A stretch of 39,183 nucleotides of DNA from an uncultured bacterium. Lineage in GTDB: Bacteria; Bacteroidota; Bacteroidia; Chitinophagales; CAIODY01. Under the pieces are notes generated by a model. The model had not been told where the DNA came from. It did no database searches and saw only the letters and a program-made list of their open reading frames with translations. Of this stretch, positions 6,615 through 39,183 are shown piece after piece. The DNA lies in NCBI GenBank assembly GCA_903857255.1, contig CAIODY010000115.1, positions 74,068 through 113,250 on the forward strand, written 5' to 3'. A program made the position numbers and the translations under genes. Position 1 is the first letter of the stretch. Each line of letters opens with the position of its first letter.

Positions 6615-7694
6615 TTAAAATTGATAATTAATGTTTGCGTTGATTACATTTTTTATTGGCACTTGTACACCATTGTATTTTTGATAAGCCTGCAAGCCAT
6701 ATTCAGCACTGATTTTCATGGCTTTGTTAGCTGTTAGTTGAATTGGAAATGATGTACCAACAAAACATCGAAGTGTGTTGCCACCATAATTAATTGTGTT
6801 TGCTGCTGGTTCATTTAAAGCATAAATGGAAGCATCAACGTCATGAATTTTTCCAACACTTGCTGCTTCGACTCTTACTGATGGATTTAACCATTTGAAA
6901 ATAGAATAAGCACTCCAAATGTTGATGGTTGCTATATTTCCGAGCCGATAATGATTGCTGTTGAATGATGTTTTGATAGATGAATTGAATTGAGTGCCAA
7001 TGGCAAATTTATTTTGTTGAAACTTGTAACTCAAGCCTGGCAATACATCCAGCGTTCCAGTTCCCAATTGCATCATGTAAGTCAAATTAGAATTTGGATA
7101 AAATACATCATCGCTTTTTCCTTTTTGGTTGATGCTACCAGTTGGCAAATTCAATCCGCCAGTAACAATTAATTCGCTGTTTTCATCTTTCAGCAAAGCA
7201 TACATAGCATACAATTGTGCATCACCAAAACCAGCACTCATCATACTTGGCATCGTGCCATTGCTTCCCATCATTTCCATGCCAGGCATATTCATTGCTG
7301 CGGTTGGCAACATTTGCATATTCATTGAATTGCTATTAAAATTCAACATACCCATCACAGTTAATCTATCCGAAATGCCATACATACCCATCAGCATGTA
7401 CATCTGCATTTGCATTTTGGTTGATGCAGCGATGTAAGTCTTAAAAACTTCATTGGTGCTAATGTTTGATGAGCCATCAAGCAATCCATTCATGTTCATT
7501 TGCATAAAATTGTAAGCCAACATCCACTCTTTTTTTTTGTGAACATGGCTAAACATAATGCCTGCTGGTGCTAAATTTTTCGAGCAACAACAATTGCTGT
7601 TGCAAACAAATGAGCTGTCGGAAGCTGCATTTGAATTATGTTGTAGCAAAGTGAAACATATCACGATGCTCAACATCAACCTACTTTTTTTCAT
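6615..7694 (-). CDS. Met-rich outer-membrane beta-barrel protein (MetA/phenol-type transporter fold)
   Basis: 359 residues with signal peptide (MKKSRLMLSIVICFTLLQHNSNAA). The mature N-terminus has a CNSNCCCS cluster, then APAGIMFSHVHKKKEWMLAYNFMQMNM. The protein is unusually Met-rich (MQMQMYMLMGMYG, MNMQMLPTAAMNMPGMEMMG) and ends NANINYQF, with a terminal Phe as in outer-membrane barrels. The pattern resembles 'transporter'-type barrels found beside MbnP genes. Met and Cys clusters are soft-metal ligands, so binding or passage of Cu(I) is a reasonable inference, not shown. It lies between the Cys-rich gene and the MbnP gene on one strand. Confidence 0.75.
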   Translation of the reverse strand: MKKSRLMLSIVICFTLLQHNSNAASDSSFVCNSNCCCSKNLAPAGIMFSHVHKKKEWMLAYNFMQMNMNGLLDGSSNISTNEVFKTYIAASTKMQMQMYMLMGMYGISDRLTVMGMLNFNSNSMNMQMLPTAAMNMPGMEMMGSNGTMPSMMSAGFGDAQLYAMYALLKDENSELIVTGGLNLPTGSINQKGKSDDVFYPNSNLTYMMQLGTGTLDVLPGLSYKFQQNKFAIGTQFNSSIKTSFNSNHYRLGNIATINIWSAYSIFKWLNPSVRVEAASVGKIHDVDASIYALNEPAANTINYGGNTLRCFVGTSFPIQLTANKAMKISAEYGLQAYQKYNGVQVPIKNVINANINYQF

Positions 7695-8205: not shown

Positions 8206-9462
8206 TTATTTGAATTGAATAGCTTGTTTGGCGGCTCTGTATGCTGGCATCCATGAAGTAGCAATGCCAATTAACAGCATCACAAAAATAATTTTAACCA
8301 CATCGAACAACTGCAAATCAACTGGGTAAGCATCCACAACAAATGAGTTGCCGCCCAATTTTAGTAGATGAAAATGTTGTTGCAAAAGGCAAATCAATAA
8401 ACCAATTGTTAAGCCGATTAATGTGCCAAAACCTGCGGCTATCATACCTTCTAATAAGAAAATATTTTTTATCAAACTGCTATCAGCACCTAGAGTTTGT
8501 AAAACACCAATGTCTTTTTTCTTATCAATGGCTACCATGCTCAAGCTGCCAATCATATTGAATGATGCAATGATTAAGATGAAACTTAAAATGCTAAACA
8601 CCACCCATTTTTCAATTTTCATAATTCGATAGGTGAATGAATTTTGCTCAAAGCGATTTTTGATTTCCACTTTGTTATTGAAAATTTCTGATAATTTTCT
8701 TTTTACAGAATGCTCATCTGACGAGCTTGTTAAAGCAATATTCAACAAACTCACTTCATCTGAATAATCTAATAAATCTTTCAAGATTTGATAATCAATG
8801 AAACAATATTTGTTGTCAAAATCTTGTTGAATGGCAAATGTGCCAGCAGGAAAAACTTGTACAGAATGAAATGCATCAAACGGATTGGTGGTAATATTTT
8901 CTGCTTTTCTGTTAGGCAAAAATATTTGCATTGGCTCGTTCATAAATTCAGGATTGATGCCCAAAGATTGCGCTACACCTGCGCCTGGCACAATATTGTA
9001 TTGATACAATGTTTCGTTATTGCTTTCGTCAAAAATTGTATCAGTACTTAATTTAAAATTGCCTTTGTAAATATTTTTTGGCACATCGCTCACTTTCGAA
9101 AAATGTTCATCAACACCTTGCATGGTGGCAATGAATTGTTGATTATGAAAACGCATCAGCGCATTTTCTTCTACACATTTCGATACCGCTTTTATGCCTT
9201 GCAATTCATGCAATTGTTTCCATTGTGAATCATTCAAATGAAAAGTTTTTCCTTCGATGGGTGTTACTTGCAAATCGCTGTTAAACGAATGATACAATGA
9301 AATTACCAAAGTTTCAAAACCATTAAAAACGCTCAAAACAATTATTAATGCTGCTGTTCCAACGGCAATAGCACCCACAGTAATCCAATTAAGTACATTG
9401 ATGGCGGCTGTACTTTTTTTTGAAAAAAAATATCGAAGTGCTATTTTGAAAGAGAGTTTCAT
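8206..9462 (-). CDS. ABC transporter permease, LolC/E-FtsX (MacB-PCD) family
   Basis: 418 residues, inner membrane. The N-terminus KIALRYFFSKKSTAAINVLNW and the first membrane helix (about 26-48, VGAIAVGTAALIIVLSVFNG) are typical of LolC/LolE-type permeases. A large periplasmic domain follows, then three C-terminal helices in an FtsX domain, with MVAIDKKKDIGVLQTLGAD and LLEGMIAAGFGTLIGL. The family moves lipoproteins or other lipids out of the inner membrane with a LolD-type ATPase, which is not in this window. The start at 9462 directly abuts the stop of the omega-amidase gene, so the two are translationally close. Confidence 0.88.
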   Translation of the reverse strand: MKLSFKIALRYFFSKKSTAAINVLNWITVGAIAVGTAALIIVLSVFNGFETLVISLYHSFNSDLQVTPIEGKTFHLNDSQWKQLHELQGIKAVSKCVEENALMRFHNQQFIATMQGVDEHFSKVSDVPKNIYKGNFKLSTDTIFDESNNETLYQYNIVPGAGVAQSLGINPEFMNEPMQIFLPNRKAENITTNPFDAFHSVQVFPAGTFAIQQDFDNKYCFIDYQILKDLLDYSDEVSLLNIALTSSSDEHSVKRKLSEIFNNKVEIKNRFEQNSFTYRIMKIEKWVVFSILSFILIIASFNMIGSLSMVAIDKKKDIGVLQTLGADSSLIKNIFLLEGMIAAGFGTLIGLTIGLLICLLQQHFHLLKLGGNSFVVDAYPVDLQLFDVVKIIFVMLLIGIATSWMPAYRAAKQAIQFK

Positions 9463-11538: not shown

Positions 11539-12090
11539 ATGGATAATCAAATTTTAGAAGAAAAAGAAACTGCCAACACTGGTTTGAAATGGGGTGGATA
11601 TGCAGGTGCAGCTTATGTTTTAAGCACTTATGTGTTGTATATGGTGTACAAAGATGGCAGATGCATTTTGTGGACTAATGGATTTTTGCCTTACATTTTT
11701 GTGATTATTGCGATGGTTTTTGCAGCTTTTGAAAAACGAAAATTAATGGGCGGTTACATCACTTTTAAAGTAGCAGTTAGCAATACTTTTTTGGTTTTAG
11801 TGATAAGCTTATTATGTTTCGCTGTGTTTTATTTTTTCTTGTTTAATACTATTGCGCCTACATTAAACGTTTCTGTGAAACACATGCAATTGGATGCGAT
11901 TCAAAAAATGTTGTTATTGCTTCATACACCAAAAGAAAATTTAGAAGAAGCCATGTTCCCTTATAAAGCTGATGATTACATTATGACTGTTCCAAGAATT
12001 GCTTTGGAAACGGTTTTTTCAATAATGAAAGGTTTTTTCTGGGCAGCTATCACGGCATTAATTGTTCGTAAAAATCAACCTACCGTTTAA
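11539..12090 (+). CDS. DUF4199-family membrane protein
   Basis: 183 residues with about four membrane segments (near residues 20-40, 49-64, 80-104 and the C-terminal 155-176). The layout, including YITFKVAVSNTFLVLVISLL, a loop, then ETVFSIMKGFFWAAITALI, fits DUF4199, a Bacteroidota family of unknown function. It stands first in a plus-strand row with two glycosyltransferases (8 bases to the GT2 start), an arrangement recalled from other Bacteroidota. It may assist a membrane glycan or lipid pathway, but the sequence does not show how. Confidence 0.82.
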   Translation: MDNQILEEKETANTGLKWGGYAGAAYVLSTYVLYMVYKDGRCILWTNGFLPYIFVIIAMVFAAFEKRKLMGGYITFKVAVSNTFLVLVISLLCFAVFYFFLFNTIAPTLNVSVKHMQLDAIQKMLLLLHTPKENLEEAMFPYKADDYIMTVPRIALETVFSIMKGFFWAAITALIVRKNQPTV

Positions 12091-20144: not shown

Positions 20145-20187
20145 TATTAATTAACGCTCAAAAATACTTTATTCATCGCAATAACTT

Positions 20188-20221
20188 TTGCTAAAAATGA
20201 ATTTGCCTAAAGCTACCTTTG
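20188..20221 (+). promoter_or_regulatory. Promoter of the trans-sulfuration enzyme gene
   Basis: TAccTTTG at 20214-20221 with TTG at 20188-20190 (23-base spacer). RNA would start near 20226, which leaves about 13 bases before the ATG at 20239 and excludes the upstream in-frame ATG at 20197. Confidence 0.55.
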
Positions 20222-20238
20222 TCACTCAAATTTATTTT

Positions 20239-21435
20239 ATGAGCAAGTCATTGCATATCGAAAGCCTTTGTGTGAAAGCAGGTGAATATCCTGAACATAG
20301 CCATATTCTGCCCATTTATCCTACATCAACATACACATTTGATGATGCAGAACAAGGTGCAGCAATTCTGAGTAATCAGCAAAAAGGATATGTGTATAGC
20401 CGATTTGAAAATCCAACAAGCGATGCTGTGGCAGAAAAAATTGCAGCGTTAGAGGGTTTTGGTCTGAATATGCCGTTGCAAGCGTATCTCACGGCTTCGG
20501 GCATGGGTGCAGTAACGGTGATGATGATGTCATTATTAAAACAAGGGCAAAAAGTTTTAACGCATTATTCGCTGTATGGCGGCACCGAAGAGTGGTTGAT
20601 GCGATTTTTACCAAAGCTAAATGTAGAAGCAGTTGTAATAAATTTTGACGACTTAAATAAAGTAGAAGAAATTTTGAAACACGATAACTCAATTGGTTTG
20701 ATTCATCTCGAAACGCCTGCCAATCCTACATTGCAGTGTGTTGACATCAAAGCTGTTTGTGCATTGGCAAAGAAATATAACGTGAAAGTGAGCGTTGATA
20801 ATACTTTCGCAACACCAATTTTGCAACAACCATTTGCAATGGGTGCTGATTTAGTTTTTCATTCCGTTACAAAATATCTCAACGGACATGGAACAACAAT
20901 TGGTGGTGTGGTGATTGGAAATGATATTGAATTTATGAATTCTGTTTTCCGAAAAACTTATCGTTTGATGGGTGCTAATAGCAATCCGTTTGATGCTTGG
21001 TTGGTGATGAATGGCTTGAAAACACTATCGTTGCGGATGGAACGCCATTGCGAAAATGCAAAAAAAGTTGCTGGTTTTTTAATTACACAAAATGCAATTT
21101 CAAAAGTAAATTATTTAGGATTAACTGAACATCCCAATCATCAATTAGCCAAGCAGCAAATGAAGAATTTTGGAGGCATGATTTCGTTTGATTTGAAAGG
21201 AGGCATTGATGCTGGCAGAAAATTTATCAATGCTTTACAACTTTGTGTGAAAGCAGTTTCGTTGGGCACTGTCGATACTTTGGTGTCGCATCCAGCTTCG
21301 ATGACGCATGTGAACATACCTGCTGAAGAACGCATGAAATATGGCATTACAGATGGTTTGATTCGTGTAAGCGTTGGTTTAGAACATGCCGATGATATTA
21401 TCAACGATTTTGAAATGGCGTTGAGTAAAATTTAG
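20239..21435 (+). CDS. PLP-dependent trans-sulfuration enzyme (cystathionine/methionine gamma-lyase or synthase family)
   Basis: 398 residues from the ATG at 20239; the frame reads up to 20188 but a promoter lies inside that stretch. Cys/Met metabolism family: IYPTSTYTFDD, YSRFENPTSDAVAEKIAALEG, ASGMGAVTVMMMSLLKQG, LETPANPTLQCVDI, and HSVTKYLNGHG with the PLP Lys. At the position where methionine gamma-lyases carry a special Cys, the text reads YSLYGGTEE, so Gly is present and a typical methionine gamma-lyase is less likely. Reaction not settled: gamma-lyase, gamma-synthase or sulfhydrylase all remain possible. Confidence 0.88.
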   Translation: MSKSLHIESLCVKAGEYPEHSHILPIYPTSTYTFDDAEQGAAILSNQQKGYVYSRFENPTSDAVAEKIAALEGFGLNMPLQAYLTASGMGAVTVMMMSLLKQGQKVLTHYSLYGGTEEWLMRFLPKLNVEAVVINFDDLNKVEEILKHDNSIGLIHLETPANPTLQCVDIKAVCALAKKYNVKVSVDNTFATPILQQPFAMGADLVFHSVTKYLNGHGTTIGGVVIGNDIEFMNSVFRKTYRLMGANSNPFDAWLVMNGLKTLSLRMERHCENAKKVAGFLITQNAISKVNYLGLTEHPNHQLAKQQMKNFGGMISFDLKGGIDAGRKFINALQLCVKAVSLGTVDTLVSHPASMTHVNIPAEERMKYGITDGLIRVSVGLEHADDIINDFEMALSKI

Positions 21436-34219: not shown

Positions 34220-34332
34220 CTTTTTTAAAATGAGGCAACAAAAATGCAGAAATAATTCAGATTAGTTTCTATAAAATTATTACTTCGTAATCCGTTTTGA
34301 AATTAACTTTACGGCTTCTACATTTTATTAAA

Positions 34333-35625
34333 ATGATAAAAAAAATATCGATTGGCTTAGCATTAGTAGTAATTCTATTAGTGATTGCAAAATGGCAAGG
34401 ATGGATTGGCGGCAACAATAATGAGCAAGTTGCTGTTGAAAAAATCAGCAAGCATACCATCATCGAAACGGTATCGGCAAGCGGAAAAATTTATCCAGTA
34501 GATGAAGTGAAAATCAGTCCTGATGTGCCAGGCGAAGTAAAAGAATTATTGGTGAAAGAAGGCGATGAAGTAAAAGCAGGGCAATTATTGGTTCGAATCA
34601 ATCCGAAAATTTATCAAAGTAGTGTTGAGCGTTCGATTGCTTCATTAAATTCGGCAAAGGCTAATGCATCATCAGCTGATGCTACCATTGAGCAAATGAA
34701 AGCGCAATTAGAAAAAGCAAAAGCTGATTTTGACCGCAACGAAAAATTGTATAACGACCATGTTATTTCAGTACAAGATTACATGAATTATAAATCAACT
34801 TTGCGCAATACACAAGCGCAATTAGATGCAGCTATGCAAAATAAAAATGCAGCAAAATTCAACATCAATAGTGCAGAAGCGAATATGAATGAATCAAACG
34901 AAAATTTGAGTAAAACAATTATTGTATCGCCTATGAGCGGCACGGTTACGCAATTGAACATTGAAAAGGGTGAAAGGGTAGTGGGTACATCGCAAATGGC
35001 AGGAACCGAAATGATGCGAATTGCCAACTTGAATGTGATGGAAGTAAGAGTGGATGTAAGCGAAAGCGATGTGGTGAAAATTCATGTAGGCGATTCGACA
35101 CACATTAAAGTTGATGCTTACCCTGATAAAGAATTTTTAGGTTTTGTAACTGATGTAGCAAATGCTTCAAAAAGTTCAACCACTGGAACAGCAGAACAGG
35201 CAACCACTTTCACAGTAAAAATCAGAATTGAACCATCATCGTATAAAGATTTTGCATCTGCAAAAAAAATGAAAACACCATTTTGGCCTGGTATGAATGC
35301 TGGCGTTGAAATATTTACCAATGCTTCGCATGATGTGTTGGCATCGCCTATTCAGGCGGTTACATTAAGAGATGATTCAGCAAAAAATGAGAATGATAAA
35401 ATCACACAAAGTGAAGTGGTGTTTATTGTGAAAAATAAAACTGCGGTGAAAAGAAAAGTAGTTACTGGTTTGCAAGATGCACATTTCATTGAAATAAAAT
35501 CAGGCATGGCAGATGGTGATGAAGTGATTGTTCTGCCTGCATCAGCCATCAGCCGAAGATTAACTGATAAAATGAAAGTGGAAGTAGTTGATAAACGGCG
35601 TTTGCAAAGTGTAGAAGGAAAATAA
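34333..35625 (+). CDS. Efflux periplasmic adaptor (MacA/HlyD family)
   Basis: 430 residues from the ATG at 34333; the in-frame ATG at 34297 adds residues before the normal membrane anchor. Residues 1-25 form the signal-anchor (IKKISIGLALVVILLVIAKWQ). Then a lipoyl half (GKIYPVDEVKISPDVPGEVKELLVKEGDEVKAGQLLVRI), a long coiled coil (about 95-190, INSAEANMNESNENLSKT), and the second lipoyl half (IIVSPMSGTVTQLNIEKGERVVG), beta-barrel and membrane-proximal domains. It should link an inner-membrane ABC or RND pump to a TolC-like channel; the partner genes are not downstream, since the tRNA gene follows. Confidence 0.92.
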   Translation: MIKKISIGLALVVILLVIAKWQGWIGGNNNEQVAVEKISKHTIIETVSASGKIYPVDEVKISPDVPGEVKELLVKEGDEVKAGQLLVRINPKIYQSSVERSIASLNSAKANASSADATIEQMKAQLEKAKADFDRNEKLYNDHVISVQDYMNYKSTLRNTQAQLDAAMQNKNAAKFNINSAEANMNESNENLSKTIIVSPMSGTVTQLNIEKGERVVGTSQMAGTEMMRIANLNVMEVRVDVSESDVVKIHVGDSTHIKVDAYPDKEFLGFVTDVANASKSSTTGTAEQATTFTVKIRIEPSSYKDFASAKKMKTPFWPGMNAGVEIFTNASHDVLASPIQAVTLRDDSAKNENDKITQSEVVFIVKNKTAVKRKVVTGLQDAHFIEIKSGMADGDEVIVLPASAISRRLTDKMKVEVVDKRRLQSVEGK

Positions 35626-35693: not shown

Positions 35694-35767
<74 letters not shown>

Positions 35768-35779
35768 CACAATAAAATC

Positions 35780-35812
35780 GCCCGTTAAATCCTTATTTAA
35801 TGGGCTTTTTTT
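35780..35812 (+). terminator. Terminator after tRNA-Ala
   Basis: Arms GCCCGTTAAAT (35780-35790) and ATTTAATGGGC (35795-35805, one G-T pair) with a CCTT loop, then seven T. Ends the tRNA transcript. Confidence 0.9.
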
Positions 35813-35840: not shown

Positions 35841-35861
35841 TTTAGCACTGTTTTAGCACTG
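35841..35861 (+). repeat. Direct repeat TTTAGCACTG x2
   Basis: TTTAGCACTG at 35841-35850 and again at 35852-35861, an 11-base period, close to one helical turn. About 75 bases past the tRNA 3' end, where integrase arm sites or iterons of an integrated element would be expected. Confidence 0.6.
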
Positions 35862-35892: not shown

Positions 35893-36429
35893 TTATTTTG
35901 TTATCTTTTTTATTATTTCAATTTTCCGTTCAGCACTTTTTTGACTTGCTAATTCAGCAATTTGTTGCTTTTTAGTTAGTTTTTGGGCTGTTTTGGCTGG
36001 TTGTATTATTTCTGTAACAACTTCTTTTGCAATCATTTTTGCATTCGGCATTTCATGTTCACGAAGCGTTTTTAGCATTTCATGCAATTTCAATTTTGAT
36101 GGAATAGTATGAATGCCATTTATCAATTCATAATGAATGATAAGTGTGTTTAGCGTATTAATGGTAAGTACAACATCATCAGTAGTAATATTAGCACCAA
36201 CGTGCTTTTCAGTGCTAATATTATTTTTCACATTGTATTCAAGCTGCTTTAGCTTTTCAACGGTTTGTAAAACATTACTGGTTTTAAAAATTACTGAATA
36301 TTTAACACTGGCAGTATGTCTAAATGAAGTTGCAAAACAACTATCAAGTAAATTTATAAGGTTTGTTATTGTCGTTTCCATTGGTTGCAAAATTGCAATT
36401 TCTGTATCGTCTAAAAAAATATTTTCCAA
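35893..36429 (-). CDS. Orphan protein of the accessory region, function unknown
   Basis: 178 residues from a TTG at 36429, or 162 from the ATG at 36381. No signal peptide or membrane helix. Predicted mostly helical, with Ile/Leu/Thr-rich N-terminal half (METTITNLINLLDSCF) and a basic C-terminus (KLTKKQQIAELASQKSAERK, then IEIIKKITK) that could contact nucleic acid. Not recognised. A perfect 12-base inverted repeat with TTAGCAC cores lies inside it (36186-36223). It is the only gene between the tRNA terminator and the HUH-like gene and points back toward the tRNA; composition is AT-rich. It is not an integrase by any motif I can see. Confidence 0.6.
   Translation of the reverse strand: MENIFLDDTEIAILQPMETTITNLINLLDSCFATSFRHTASVKYSVIFKTSNVLQTVEKLKQLEYNVKNNISTEKHVGANITTDDVVLTINTLNTLIIHYELINGIHTIPSKLKLHEMLKTLREHEMPNAKMIAKEVVTEIIQPAKTAQKLTKKQQIAELASQKSAERKIEIIKKITK
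36186..36223. repeat. Perfect 12-base inverted repeat with TTAGCAC core
   Basis: TAATATTAGCAC (36186-36197) and GTGCTAATATTA (36212-36223) around a 14-base spacer. The TTAGCAC heptamer also occurs at 35842-35848, 35854-35860 and 37422-37428, so it is shared across the accessory region. Confidence 0.6.
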
Positions 36430-36504
36430 AAACTATTGACTTTAAAAAAAACTGAACTATTTATTGTTTCAAAAGGGCGAAGATTTTGTGTGATTGATGT
36501 TGAG

Positions 36505-36533
36505 GGGTTGGCTATGCCAAAGCCCTTTTTTTA
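36505..36533 (+). terminator. Terminator-like hairpin upstream of the HUH-like gene (possible attenuator)
   Basis: GGGTTGGC (36505-36512) can pair with GCCAA plus CCC (36516-36525, two-base bulge), followed by a T tract. A competing pairing is possible between AAAAGGGC (36471-36478) and GCCCTTTT (36522-36529). It ends about 75 bases before the GTG of the HUH-like gene on the same strand. It could end a short RNA begun near 36470 or attenuate the downstream gene. Confidence 0.5.
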
Positions 36534-36549
36534 TTATAAATAACGGAAT

Positions 36550-36576
36550 ACCTCAAATATCCGTAATACGTGAGGT
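36550..36576 (+). other. Stem-loop before the HUH-like gene, candidate nick/origin site
   Basis: ACCTCA (36550-36555) and TGAGGT (36571-36576) form a 6-bp stem around a 15-base loop containing ATCCGTAATACG. It lies 30 bases upstream of the start of a putative HUH nickase; Rep-type enzymes often nick a loop in such a structure. Function is inferred from position only. Confidence 0.35.
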
Positions 36577-36606
36577 GTGTCCGATGGTGAATAATCAGCA
36601 CATGAA

Positions 36607-37209
36607 GTGAAAGATTTTAACGTAAAAAATTTATCAGTAATACAATTTAATGGATACTTCAAAGATTGGTTAAATTCACTGGTGCGTAAAACATTTAGTG
36701 GTGAAACTGATTTGTATTTCATCACGTATCAACCACATGAATTAACATTATTGAGCAATGAAGTTAAAGCACACACCAAAGCCCTATTTGGGAATGTAAA
36801 GTATGTTGAAGTTATTGAACAAACATTTATTGAAAACAAAGTTTACAATACTGGTAACTATATTGATGGCTATCATTCACACTTAATCGTAAAAGAAAGC
36901 GATTACAAAAAGATAGCACATACACTTACAGAATTTGATATTAAAGCAAAGTGGGTTTACGATTTAACAGGGTTAAAAGAATATTTAAGCAAGCAAGCTG
37001 GGGGAACAAGAAATAGAATATTACCTACTCGAAATGTACCACCACCAACGATTGAGATTATAGTAACCAATGTAAAACAAGCCACTTACAAGGTTATTAA
37101 TATAGTAGTTGTAACAGTTCGATTTATTCCAAGTAGCATTTTTGTTGCCGAAAGATTACTGCCAGTTAATAAGATTAACCGCAAACACATGTTTATTGAT
37201 GATACATGA
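36607..37209 (+). CDS. Putative HUH-type replication/nicking protein
   Basis: 200 residues from a GTG at 36607, as no ATG fits. Three features line up like a single-Tyr HUH nuclease: a hydrophobic strand LYFITYQP (about 36-43, motif I position), YHSHLIV with the metal pair His90-x-His92 (motif II), and LKEYLSKQ with Tyr126 followed by Lys129 and Gln130 (compatible with YxxK of Rep or YxxxQ of Y1 transposases). The region after residue 139 is hydrophobic and not family-like. The protein is short for a plasmid Rep and longer than TnpA of IS200/IS605. No phage or plasmid partner is recognised. Confident as a gene; moderate for HUH. Confidence 0.55.
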   Translation: MKDFNVKNLSVIQFNGYFKDWLNSLVRKTFSGETDLYFITYQPHELTLLSNEVKAHTKALFGNVKYVEVIEQTFIENKVYNTGNYIDGYHSHLIVKESDYKKIAHTLTEFDIKAKWVYDLTGLKEYLSKQAGGTRNRILPTRNVPPPTIEIIVTNVKQATYKVINIVVVTVRFIPSSIFVAERLLPVNKINRKHMFIDDT

Positions 37210-37510
37210 AAAACAGCAGCAATGGGGGTCGGGCTGGGTTTTGGCATTGGCTAAAAAAATGAAAATGAAAATTAGTTACCGCCCTTACTATACACAAATT
37301 GCAAGTTGAAATATGTACACATCAAATGCTGTTCAAAAATTTTTAAAAATTTTTTTAGATTTTTTTCATGTACCATTTGGGCTTATAGTGGCACGTTCAC
37401 GTTATTTAAGTATTAAGCAAATTAGCACGTTTATGCTATGTGGAATGAATGGCTAATCGTTTACAGCATTGGTTTTGTGTTTGTTTTTAAATACACAGAT
37501 ATTTATAGGT
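37210..37510. other. Gene-free AT-rich stretch with short repeats
   Basis: About 300 bases without a credible gene. It holds a G-rich tract (37224-37243, GGGGG, GGG, GGG and GG runs), a run of A/T around 37335-37370, and three CACGTT copies (37392-37397, 37398-37403, 37426-37431), two of them inside GCACGTT, one next to TTAGCAC (37422-37428). It separates the HUH-like gene from the 42-aa ORF. Confidence 0.5.
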
Positions 37511-37639
37511 ATGAAAATGAAAATCACACAAAAACAACTAAAATTAATTTTGCACAACGTGCCAAAAGGTAAAAGTATTAAAGCCAATATCAACGATTTA
37601 GATAGGCTTGCAAAAATGGTTACAAATAGAAAGAAGTAA
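37511..37639 (+). CDS. Small basic ORF, 42 aa, unknown
   Basis: ATG at 37511 to TAA at 37637-37639, giving MKMKITQKQLKLILHNVPKG and then KSIKANINDLDRLAKMVTNRKK. Strongly basic, predicted helix-loop-helix, possibly DNA-binding. No Shine-Dalgarno-like site of note. It lies between the gene-free stretch and the LytTR regulator. Too short to assign; coding status is supported only by the clean frame and composition. Confidence 0.45.
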   Translation: MKMKITQKQLKLILHNVPKGKSIKANINDLDRLAKMVTNRKK

Positions 37640-37771: not shown

Positions 37772-38548
37772 ATGATTACTTGCCTCATTATAGACGATGA
37801 AAAGAATTCACGAGATTTTTTAATCAAACTAATTAATCAATATTTTGGTTCAAAATTGTACGTTGTAGATGCAGTGGATTCAGTGGCTAAAGGTGTTGAG
37901 GTTATTAATAAACTACACCCCGAATTAGTGTTTTTAGATATTGAAATGAAGGGTGAAGATGGGTTTCAGTTATTTAAACATTTTGATAGTGTTTTATTCG
38001 ATATTATTTTCACAACAGCACATAAAAACTATGCAATAGATGCCATCAAACATGCAGCAATTGATTATCTATTGAAACCACTAAATTTTGTGGATTTGAA
38101 TGATGCAATAAAAAGATTAGAGCGAAAGCAAACAGCATCAACCAATCAACTTCGTATAAATGCACTCTTGCAAAATCTAAATACTGATTCAACCCTGTTT
38201 AATAAAATTGCATTGCCTACTGCTACTGGTTATGAGTTGGAGAAAATAAGCAACATTTTATATTGTGAAGGTGATGGTAATTATTCCAAAGTTGCCACGT
38301 TACAAAACAAAGAAATAGTTGTTTCAAAAACACTAAAATATCTTGAAAGCATCTTGCCTACAAGTGTATTTGTAAGAATACATAAATCAACTTTGGTAAA
38401 CTTAAATTACATAACCTCTTATAGTAGAGTAAATGGGTACAGCATCACAATGAGTTCGGGCAAAAAATTTGATGTTTCATTTAGAAAAAACGATGAGTTT
38501 CTATCTTCGATTTTACAAAAGAAAACACAGCCCGAAAATGAAAACTAA
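37772..38548 (+). CDS. LytTR-family response regulator
   Basis: 258 residues. Receiver domain (1-120): acidic pair Asp8-Asp9 in CLIIDDEKNSRD, phosphoacceptor Asp56 in LVFLDIEM, Thr in FTTAHKNYAIDA and Lys in DYLLKPLNF. LytTR DNA-binding domain (about 145-250): ISNILYCEGDGNYSKV, KTLKYLESILP, FVRIHKSTLVNLNYI and KFDVSFRKNDEFL. Overlaps the sensor gene by 11 bases, so the two form a two-component pair. The promoter may be TTG (37718-37720) with a TAGTTTG-like box near 37738; the match is imperfect. Confidence 0.94.
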   Translation: MITCLIIDDEKNSRDFLIKLINQYFGSKLYVVDAVDSVAKGVEVINKLHPELVFLDIEMKGEDGFQLFKHFDSVLFDIIFTTAHKNYAIDAIKHAAIDYLLKPLNFVDLNDAIKRLERKQTASTNQLRINALLQNLNTDSTLFNKIALPTATGYELEKISNILYCEGDGNYSKVATLQNKEIVVSKTLKYLESILPTSVFVRIHKSTLVNLNYITSYSRVNGYSITMSSGKKFDVSFRKNDEFLSSILQKKTQPENEN

Positions 38549-39183
38549 ATCGGTTTGTTTTGTAGTATTTTTTATAAGCCTATTTCTATTTCAGCTACAT
38601 GCCCAATCTTTATCAAGCATAAATATTACTGTAAATGATGGATTGCCAAGCAATACAATTCGTGCTATTTATAAAGATAGCAGAGGGTTACTTTGGATAG
38701 GAACTGATAATGGTTTGTGTAGTTACGATGGAATAAAATTTAAAGTCTATGATGAAATAAGCAAACAAAAAAACAATGCAATTTGGGCTATTGTTGAGGG
38801 CTTACAACACAATATTTGGTTTTCTGCTTACGGTAATGGATTGGTGAAATTTGACGGCAAAAAATTCACTTGTTACGACAATAAAAACGGACTGATTAAT
38901 AACAGTATTCGTAAACTTTATTTTTCTAAAAAGCACCAATGTTTAATAATTGGAACTGAAAATGGTTTATCTGTTTTCACTGGTTCAAAGTTTAAATCAT
39001 TTCCAAGTTTTCATCAAAAAACACCTTTGCAAGTTTTAGGAATTAATGAGTGGAACGATAAAGTGCTTATTACAACACGATACAACGGCGTTTATGCTTT
39101 AACTTTTTTCATCAAAAAATAATGAGGCTTATAGGCTCGATAGTTTTTTCAAAACTGAAATTTGCTTTTCGGGATTTGTAAAC
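38538..39183 (+). pseudogene. Two-component sensor with propeller (Reg_prop) repeats; frameshifted and cut by window end
   Basis: Starts at the ATG at 38538, overlapping the response-regulator stop. Signal peptide (KTKSVCFVVFFISLFLFQLHAQ region), then ligand-sensing propeller repeats: GLPSNTIRAIYKDSRGLLWI, GTDNGLCSYDG, GLINNSIRKLYFS, IGTENGLSVFTG. In the given frame it stops at 39120-39122 after ALTFFIKK. Removing one T from the T6 run at 39104-39109 restores a frame reading LTFSSKNNEAYRLDSFFKTE and on to the window end. The kinase domain would lie beyond the window. It is either a pseudogene, a phase-variable gene or a sequencing error. Sensor partner of the LytTR regulator by overlap. Confidence 0.8.

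Follow-up and report, generated by a model that had tools for sequence, protein, structure and literature searches.

What kind of protein is encoded by a small open reading frame (ORF) that stands about 840 bp from a tRNA gene, and does it belong to a mobile element? The ORF, of 200 amino acids (36607..37209, + strand), lies in a 39,183-nucleotide stretch, here called the window, of contig CAIODY010000115.1 (C115) from an uncultured bacterium of the Bacteroidia order Chitinophagales. An initial annotation from the letters of the window had read it as an orphan HUH nickase, with no integrase nearby. On the contigs as joined by overlap, we find that an element of approximately 8.3 kb occupies the tRNA-Ala gene, and the 200-aa protein is probably a nicking enzyme for rolling-circle copying of the excised element.

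The tRNA-Ala gene (GGC; 35694..35768, +), detected by ARAGORN and the Rfam tRNA family at the annotated distance from the ORF, serves as the integration site. Its 3' end contains the attachment (att) core GATTCCGATATTCTCCAC (35751..35768, +), of which the window holds no second copy. The end of the window falls within the element, and the rest is located on a neighbouring contig, C67 (L039), whose end overlaps that of the window by 311 bp at 98.7% identity, with three substitutions and one indel. C67 encodes a 393-aa tyrosine integrase (L039:5599-6780; Pfam Phage_integrase, E 1.8e-11) and, adjoining it, holds a second att copy that matches the 18 nt of the tRNA-Ala 3' end exactly. The statement that there is no integrase therefore does not hold; it arose because the window ends short of the gene. 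With C115 and C67 joined at the overlap, the two att copies are 8,289 bp apart. Between the integrase and its att copy lies TTTAGCACTTTTTTAGCAC, which matches TTTAGCACTGTTTTAGCAC adjoining tRNA-Ala in the window, and paired TTTAGCAC repeats are present at both element ends, the same pair being found in three sister elements. One such paired repeat, TTTAGCACTGTTTTAGCACTG (35841..35861, +), resembles integrase arm sites and may function as one. The integrase, the matching att copy and the paired repeats on C67 together indicate the 8.3-kb element in tRNA-Ala. Past the C67 att copy, genes are of chromosomal type (M23 peptidase, PhoU).

The sister elements are integrated at tRNA-Ser in genomes G049, G103 and G141. 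Each encodes a relative of the 178-aa gene that is closest to tRNA-Ala in the window element (35893..36429, - strand); in all three this is the first gene beside tRNA-Ser, and a TTTAGCACTGTTTTAGCAC-type pair sits between it and the tRNA gene. The integrase of the G049 element is a 46% relative of the window-element integrase, and a copy of the tRNA-Ser 3' end (TCCCTTTCTCTCCGC) is found just upstream of it. The layout of att copies and arm-like repeats thus recurs in G049, as it does in the element of G446 described below, and the architecture of the sister elements lends independent support to that of the window element and to the contig join.

Turning to the 200-aa ORF itself, its annotated coordinates are correct, with a GTG start codon that fits the alignment because the ATG of a homolog aligns at the same place. 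This homolog, on contig C102 of G446, was the only full-length match in 395 genomes of the class (E 2.5e-39, 41% identity) and comes from another Bacteroidia order, so that the gene is no longer an orphan. Differences between the two genes amount to 0.49, 0.39 and 0.66 at the three codon positions, which indicates constraint at the protein level; by this measure the ORF is a real gene. The annotated motifs, comprising a motif I-like hydrophobic strand (YFITYQP), H90-S-H92 and Y126-LSKQ, are found at the positions given for them, and H90, H92, Y126, K129 and Q130 are invariant in the two sequences compared, the longest identical run being YLSKQAG. As the two-motif pattern also arises in ~0.25% of shuffles of either protein, the motifs alone are weak evidence; it is their conservation in the homolog that gives them weight. 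Both members have the HUH motif and a downstream Tyr with Lys, and motifs I, II and III follow in the order of replication initiator proteins (Reps), from which the Mob relaxases differ (PMC5714925).

The rep gene does not stand alone. Order is common to the window and to the homologous locus of G446 (L035), namely a hairpin with a T-run, a second hairpin, rep, ~300-400 bp of non-coding DNA and a small ORF. Both structures that had been annotated upstream of the gene, a terminator-like hairpin and a stem-loop, are present and have counterparts in L035. Hairpin I (36503..36532, +; L035 8988-9015) is a candidate attenuator of rep or a candidate component of the origin, and hairpin II (36544..36583, +; L035 ~9026-9066) is a candidate double-strand origin with a putative nick site in its loop. 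Folded as DNA, the window hairpins are equalled in stability by 3 of 200 shuffles (hairpin I) and 2 of 200 (hairpin II). Hairpin I outfolds most shuffles at both loci, whereas hairpin II is clearer in the window (z -2.8) than in L035 (z -1.0). When the two copies of hairpin II are aligned by their stems, pairing survives two two-sided changes (T-A to G-C and C-G to T-A) as well as several one-sided changes, and the loops agree at 9 of 13 bases, in a comparison made by hand from two sequences and weak on its own. In a MAFFT alignment the stems fall about three columns out of register, and for this reason RNAalifold failed to return the complete hairpin II. No Rfam family other than tRNA was matched. 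Downstream, the 40-aa ORF (37517..37639, +) has a homolog of 41 aa in the corresponding position of L035, with an alignment score reached by none of 2000 shuffles. The non-coding stretch between rep and this ORF (37210..37516, +) contains short blocks that can be aligned with L035 and no significant fold; as a guess, it could hold a putative second-strand origin.

In L035 the block again lies within an element. The 3' end of tRNA-Met (11602-11623) is matched at 20 of 22 positions by a 22-nt stretch at 7115-7136, the two tRNA-derived repeats being 4,487 bp apart with the HUH-like gene between them, and GGTGCGT repeats lie close to both ends. In addition to the two hairpins, the HUH-like gene and the 41-aa ORF, this element encodes a tyrosine integrase (Pfam), a weakly HTH_17-like protein and a leucine-rich-repeat protein. 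Kinship of the HTH gene with the 178-aa gene of the window was rejected on comparison. The integrases of the two elements show no significant BLAST similarity, and no HUH-like ORF was found in the readable parts of the sister elements at tRNA-Ser, suggesting that the HUH block is a module and not a fixed part of one element family. Among these few elements, some of them incomplete, it appears to be exchangeable. Beyond the other side of tRNA-Met, L035 11798-13768 encodes another tyrosine integrase, together with an HNH protein that bears homing-endonuclease repeats, and is possibly the start of a second element adjoining the first.

Our favored account, to which we give moderate credence, is that excision by the integrase is followed by rolling-circle replication, which the HUH-like protein would initiate from the hairpin upstream of its gene. 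The tyrosine integrase would recombine the 18-nt cores at the tRNA end and release the element as a circle. The 200-aa protein would then act as replication initiator, a stand-alone single-Tyr HUH endonuclease in which H90 and H92 bind a metal ion and Tyr126 starts rolling-circle replication by nicking hairpin II in its loop, a short distance 5' of rep. Early termination at hairpin I, with its T-run, would keep rep expression in check. In support of this mechanism, hairpins, rep and small ORF are kept as one block in two elements, each with an integrase and tRNA-derived repeats. The best fit among the options listed in the initial annotation is the first, a Rep of an integrated rolling-circle plasmid.

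Several observations weigh against this account. The residue between H90 and H92 is Ser and not the usual bulky hydrophobic one, giving HxH in place of a strict HUH motif. The protein has no profile match in Pfam or NCBIfam and no sequence match in the PDB, and its sole match in PHROGs is weak and to a family of unknown function. AlphaFold2 models, built from the two-sequence alignment for the full length and for the core, are of low confidence (predicted local distance difference test scores of 38.9 and 51.3, respectively), and Foldseek found no significant match for them. The L035 hairpin II is not significant on its own, the join of C115 to C67 is one that we infer, and an empty site was looked for in relatives and not found because their tRNA-Ala sits in different surroundings. 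Nevertheless, both AlphaFold2 runs place HxH on a strand and the Tyr in a later helix, strands and helices succeed one another as expected of HUH enzymes, and the weak Foldseek matches are to ferredoxin-like proteins, including a Y1 transposase (2ec2) and parvovirus NS proteins. The models are compatible with an HUH fold, which they do not demonstrate, and they point to no confident non-HUH fold. The annotated reading, of a small integrated element with a putative single-Tyr HUH enzyme, is favored by motif conservation, predicted strand and helix order, the neighbouring conserved hairpins and the element context.

The main rival to replication is that the protein acts chiefly as a relaxase-like nickase, cutting an origin of transfer (oriT), which may be the same hairpin, and thereby allowing a helper conjugative element to mobilize the circle; the element would then be an integrative mobilizable element (IME). 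Relaxase use, alone or added to replication, seems to us unlikely, yet it deserves to be taken seriously. An integrase is present, the element lacks any further candidate mobilization gene, and relaxases of rolling-circle replication (RCR) type are common in streptococcal IMEs (PMC5704250). With those IMEs, and with the tRNA-integrated Bacteroidetes IMEs NBU1 and NBU2, it shares a tyrosine integrase, an att site at a tRNA 3' end, small size and a nickase-like gene. However, the motifs are arranged as in Reps, neither Rep_2 nor Rep_trans was detected as a relative, and the Bacteroidetes IMEs tabulated in the same study use MobP relaxases, which the window element lacks; no relaxase profile was found among its genes, and neither a coupling protein nor a recognizable oriT was seen.

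A less probable alternative, which we regard as improbable, is that the protein is not an HUH enzyme at all, the motifs being coincidental and its role in the element a different one. The missing profile and significant fold matches, the Ser between the His residues and the generic ferredoxin-like character of the best weak fold matches would all suit this explanation. Chance, however, yields the two motifs at the low shuffle frequency given above, their residues are invariant at 41% overall identity, and a location beside conserved hairpins is what would be expected of a Rep. Least probable of all is that the hairpins, HUH-like gene and small ORF form a small IS200/IS605-style transposon that landed in two unrelated integrative elements, for although the block is common to elements with dissimilar integrases, has hairpins at its left end and, like Y1 transposases, encodes a small single-Tyr protein with predicted HUH activity on hairpins, it has no Y1_Tnp match, is single copy in the genome, lacks a significant hairpin at its right end and lies inside an integrase element in both known cases, with the tyrosine integrase and tRNA repeats accounting for integration in the window.

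How widespread is this Rep family? Profile searches of the phylum, the order and the relatives' samples returned no further member, and the gene is absent from the five other genomes of the bacterial family; the comparison between relatives proposed in the initial annotation thus shows it to be variable. A DNA pattern with the motifs at their observed spacing, which detects only members with identical spacing, gave 16 matches in ~85,000 species, one of them real (L055, the contig of the G446 homolog). Two matches in a separate scan of viral contigs were attributed to chance. In other scans, each limited in reach, no Rep homolog was found among the viral contigs, plasmids or phages scanned and no homolog of the small ORF among the phages scanned. 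Weak matches in relatives' genomes (E 0.007-1) and in phage MT835833 were set aside as chance-like, being partial, in unrelated long frames or with internal stops. Relative to the searches made, the family is very rare, and it appears to be absent from the libraries searched, a comparison that did not take in the sequences of the 'Bacteroidetes' HUH cluster (PMC6668415).

The remaining features of the element lie around this block. On the element side of tRNA-Ala, 3' of the gene, is a terminator-like hairpin (35780..35805, +), which differs from the terminator-like sequence after the C67 att copy. The 178-aa gene is an element-end gene and, as a guess, perhaps a recombination directionality factor. 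Inside it, at 36188-36222, is an inverted repeat, AATATTAGCAC...GTGCTAATATT, with the TTAGCAC word of the arm-like repeats, possibly an internal protein-binding site. Cargo comprises a LytTR response regulator (37772..38548, +; Pfam), the 5' part of a propeller histidine kinase (38538..39183, +) that extends onto C67, and two small proteins, one DUF3575-like and one without a match. At 39100-39122 the window has one extra T relative to the end of L039, which disrupts the kinase frame that is intact on C67; the probable cause is assembly or strain variation at the end of the contig. In G001, of the same genus, homologs of window genes 20185-21432 and 34291-35622 are on separate contigs (L036 and L040), and the efflux-adaptor gene that comes before tRNA-Ala in the window is located apart from it; the gene order at this tRNA is not conserved between G001 and the window. 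Among the sister elements, a serine resolvase gene (L072 843-1445) adjoins the G049 integrase, whose frame contains an internal stop, and G141 encodes a 460-aa protein with weak MarR and DnaD_N matches (L075 792-2174), ~14 kb from the tRNA-Ser end, that could be another kind of replication initiator.

Plasmids that integrate and encode HUH Reps have been described before; among them are pCRESS1-9 and a 'Bacteroidetes' HUH cluster that is unassigned (Kazlauskas et al. 2019, PMC6668415). Like them, the window element is small, site-specifically integrated and bordered by direct repeats, and has a stand-alone Rep with motifs I, II and III in order and a YxxK motif III. Unlike those Reps, the protein matches no Rep profile and has Ser in its HUH motif, and it lacks the superfamily 3 (SF3) helicase domain of pCRESS Reps. 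The type of system is therefore already known, and it is the Rep family that appears undescribed. A bolder proposal, which we put forward tentatively and hold to be doubtful, is that this family consists of stand-alone HUH initiators, each paired with a conserved 40-aa partner and a bipartite origin of hairpins, together a cassette moving between unrelated tRNA-integrated Bacteroidia elements and forming an HUH cluster separate from those described. What had looked like an orphan gene becomes part of a delimited mobile element, with a replication module that goes undetected by profile libraries. Should the protein prove to be an HUH nickase, the group that gave single-stranded DNA viruses their Reps (PMC6668415) would gain a family, and Bacteroidia would offer a compact candidate origin, composed of one small protein and a 40-base hairpin.
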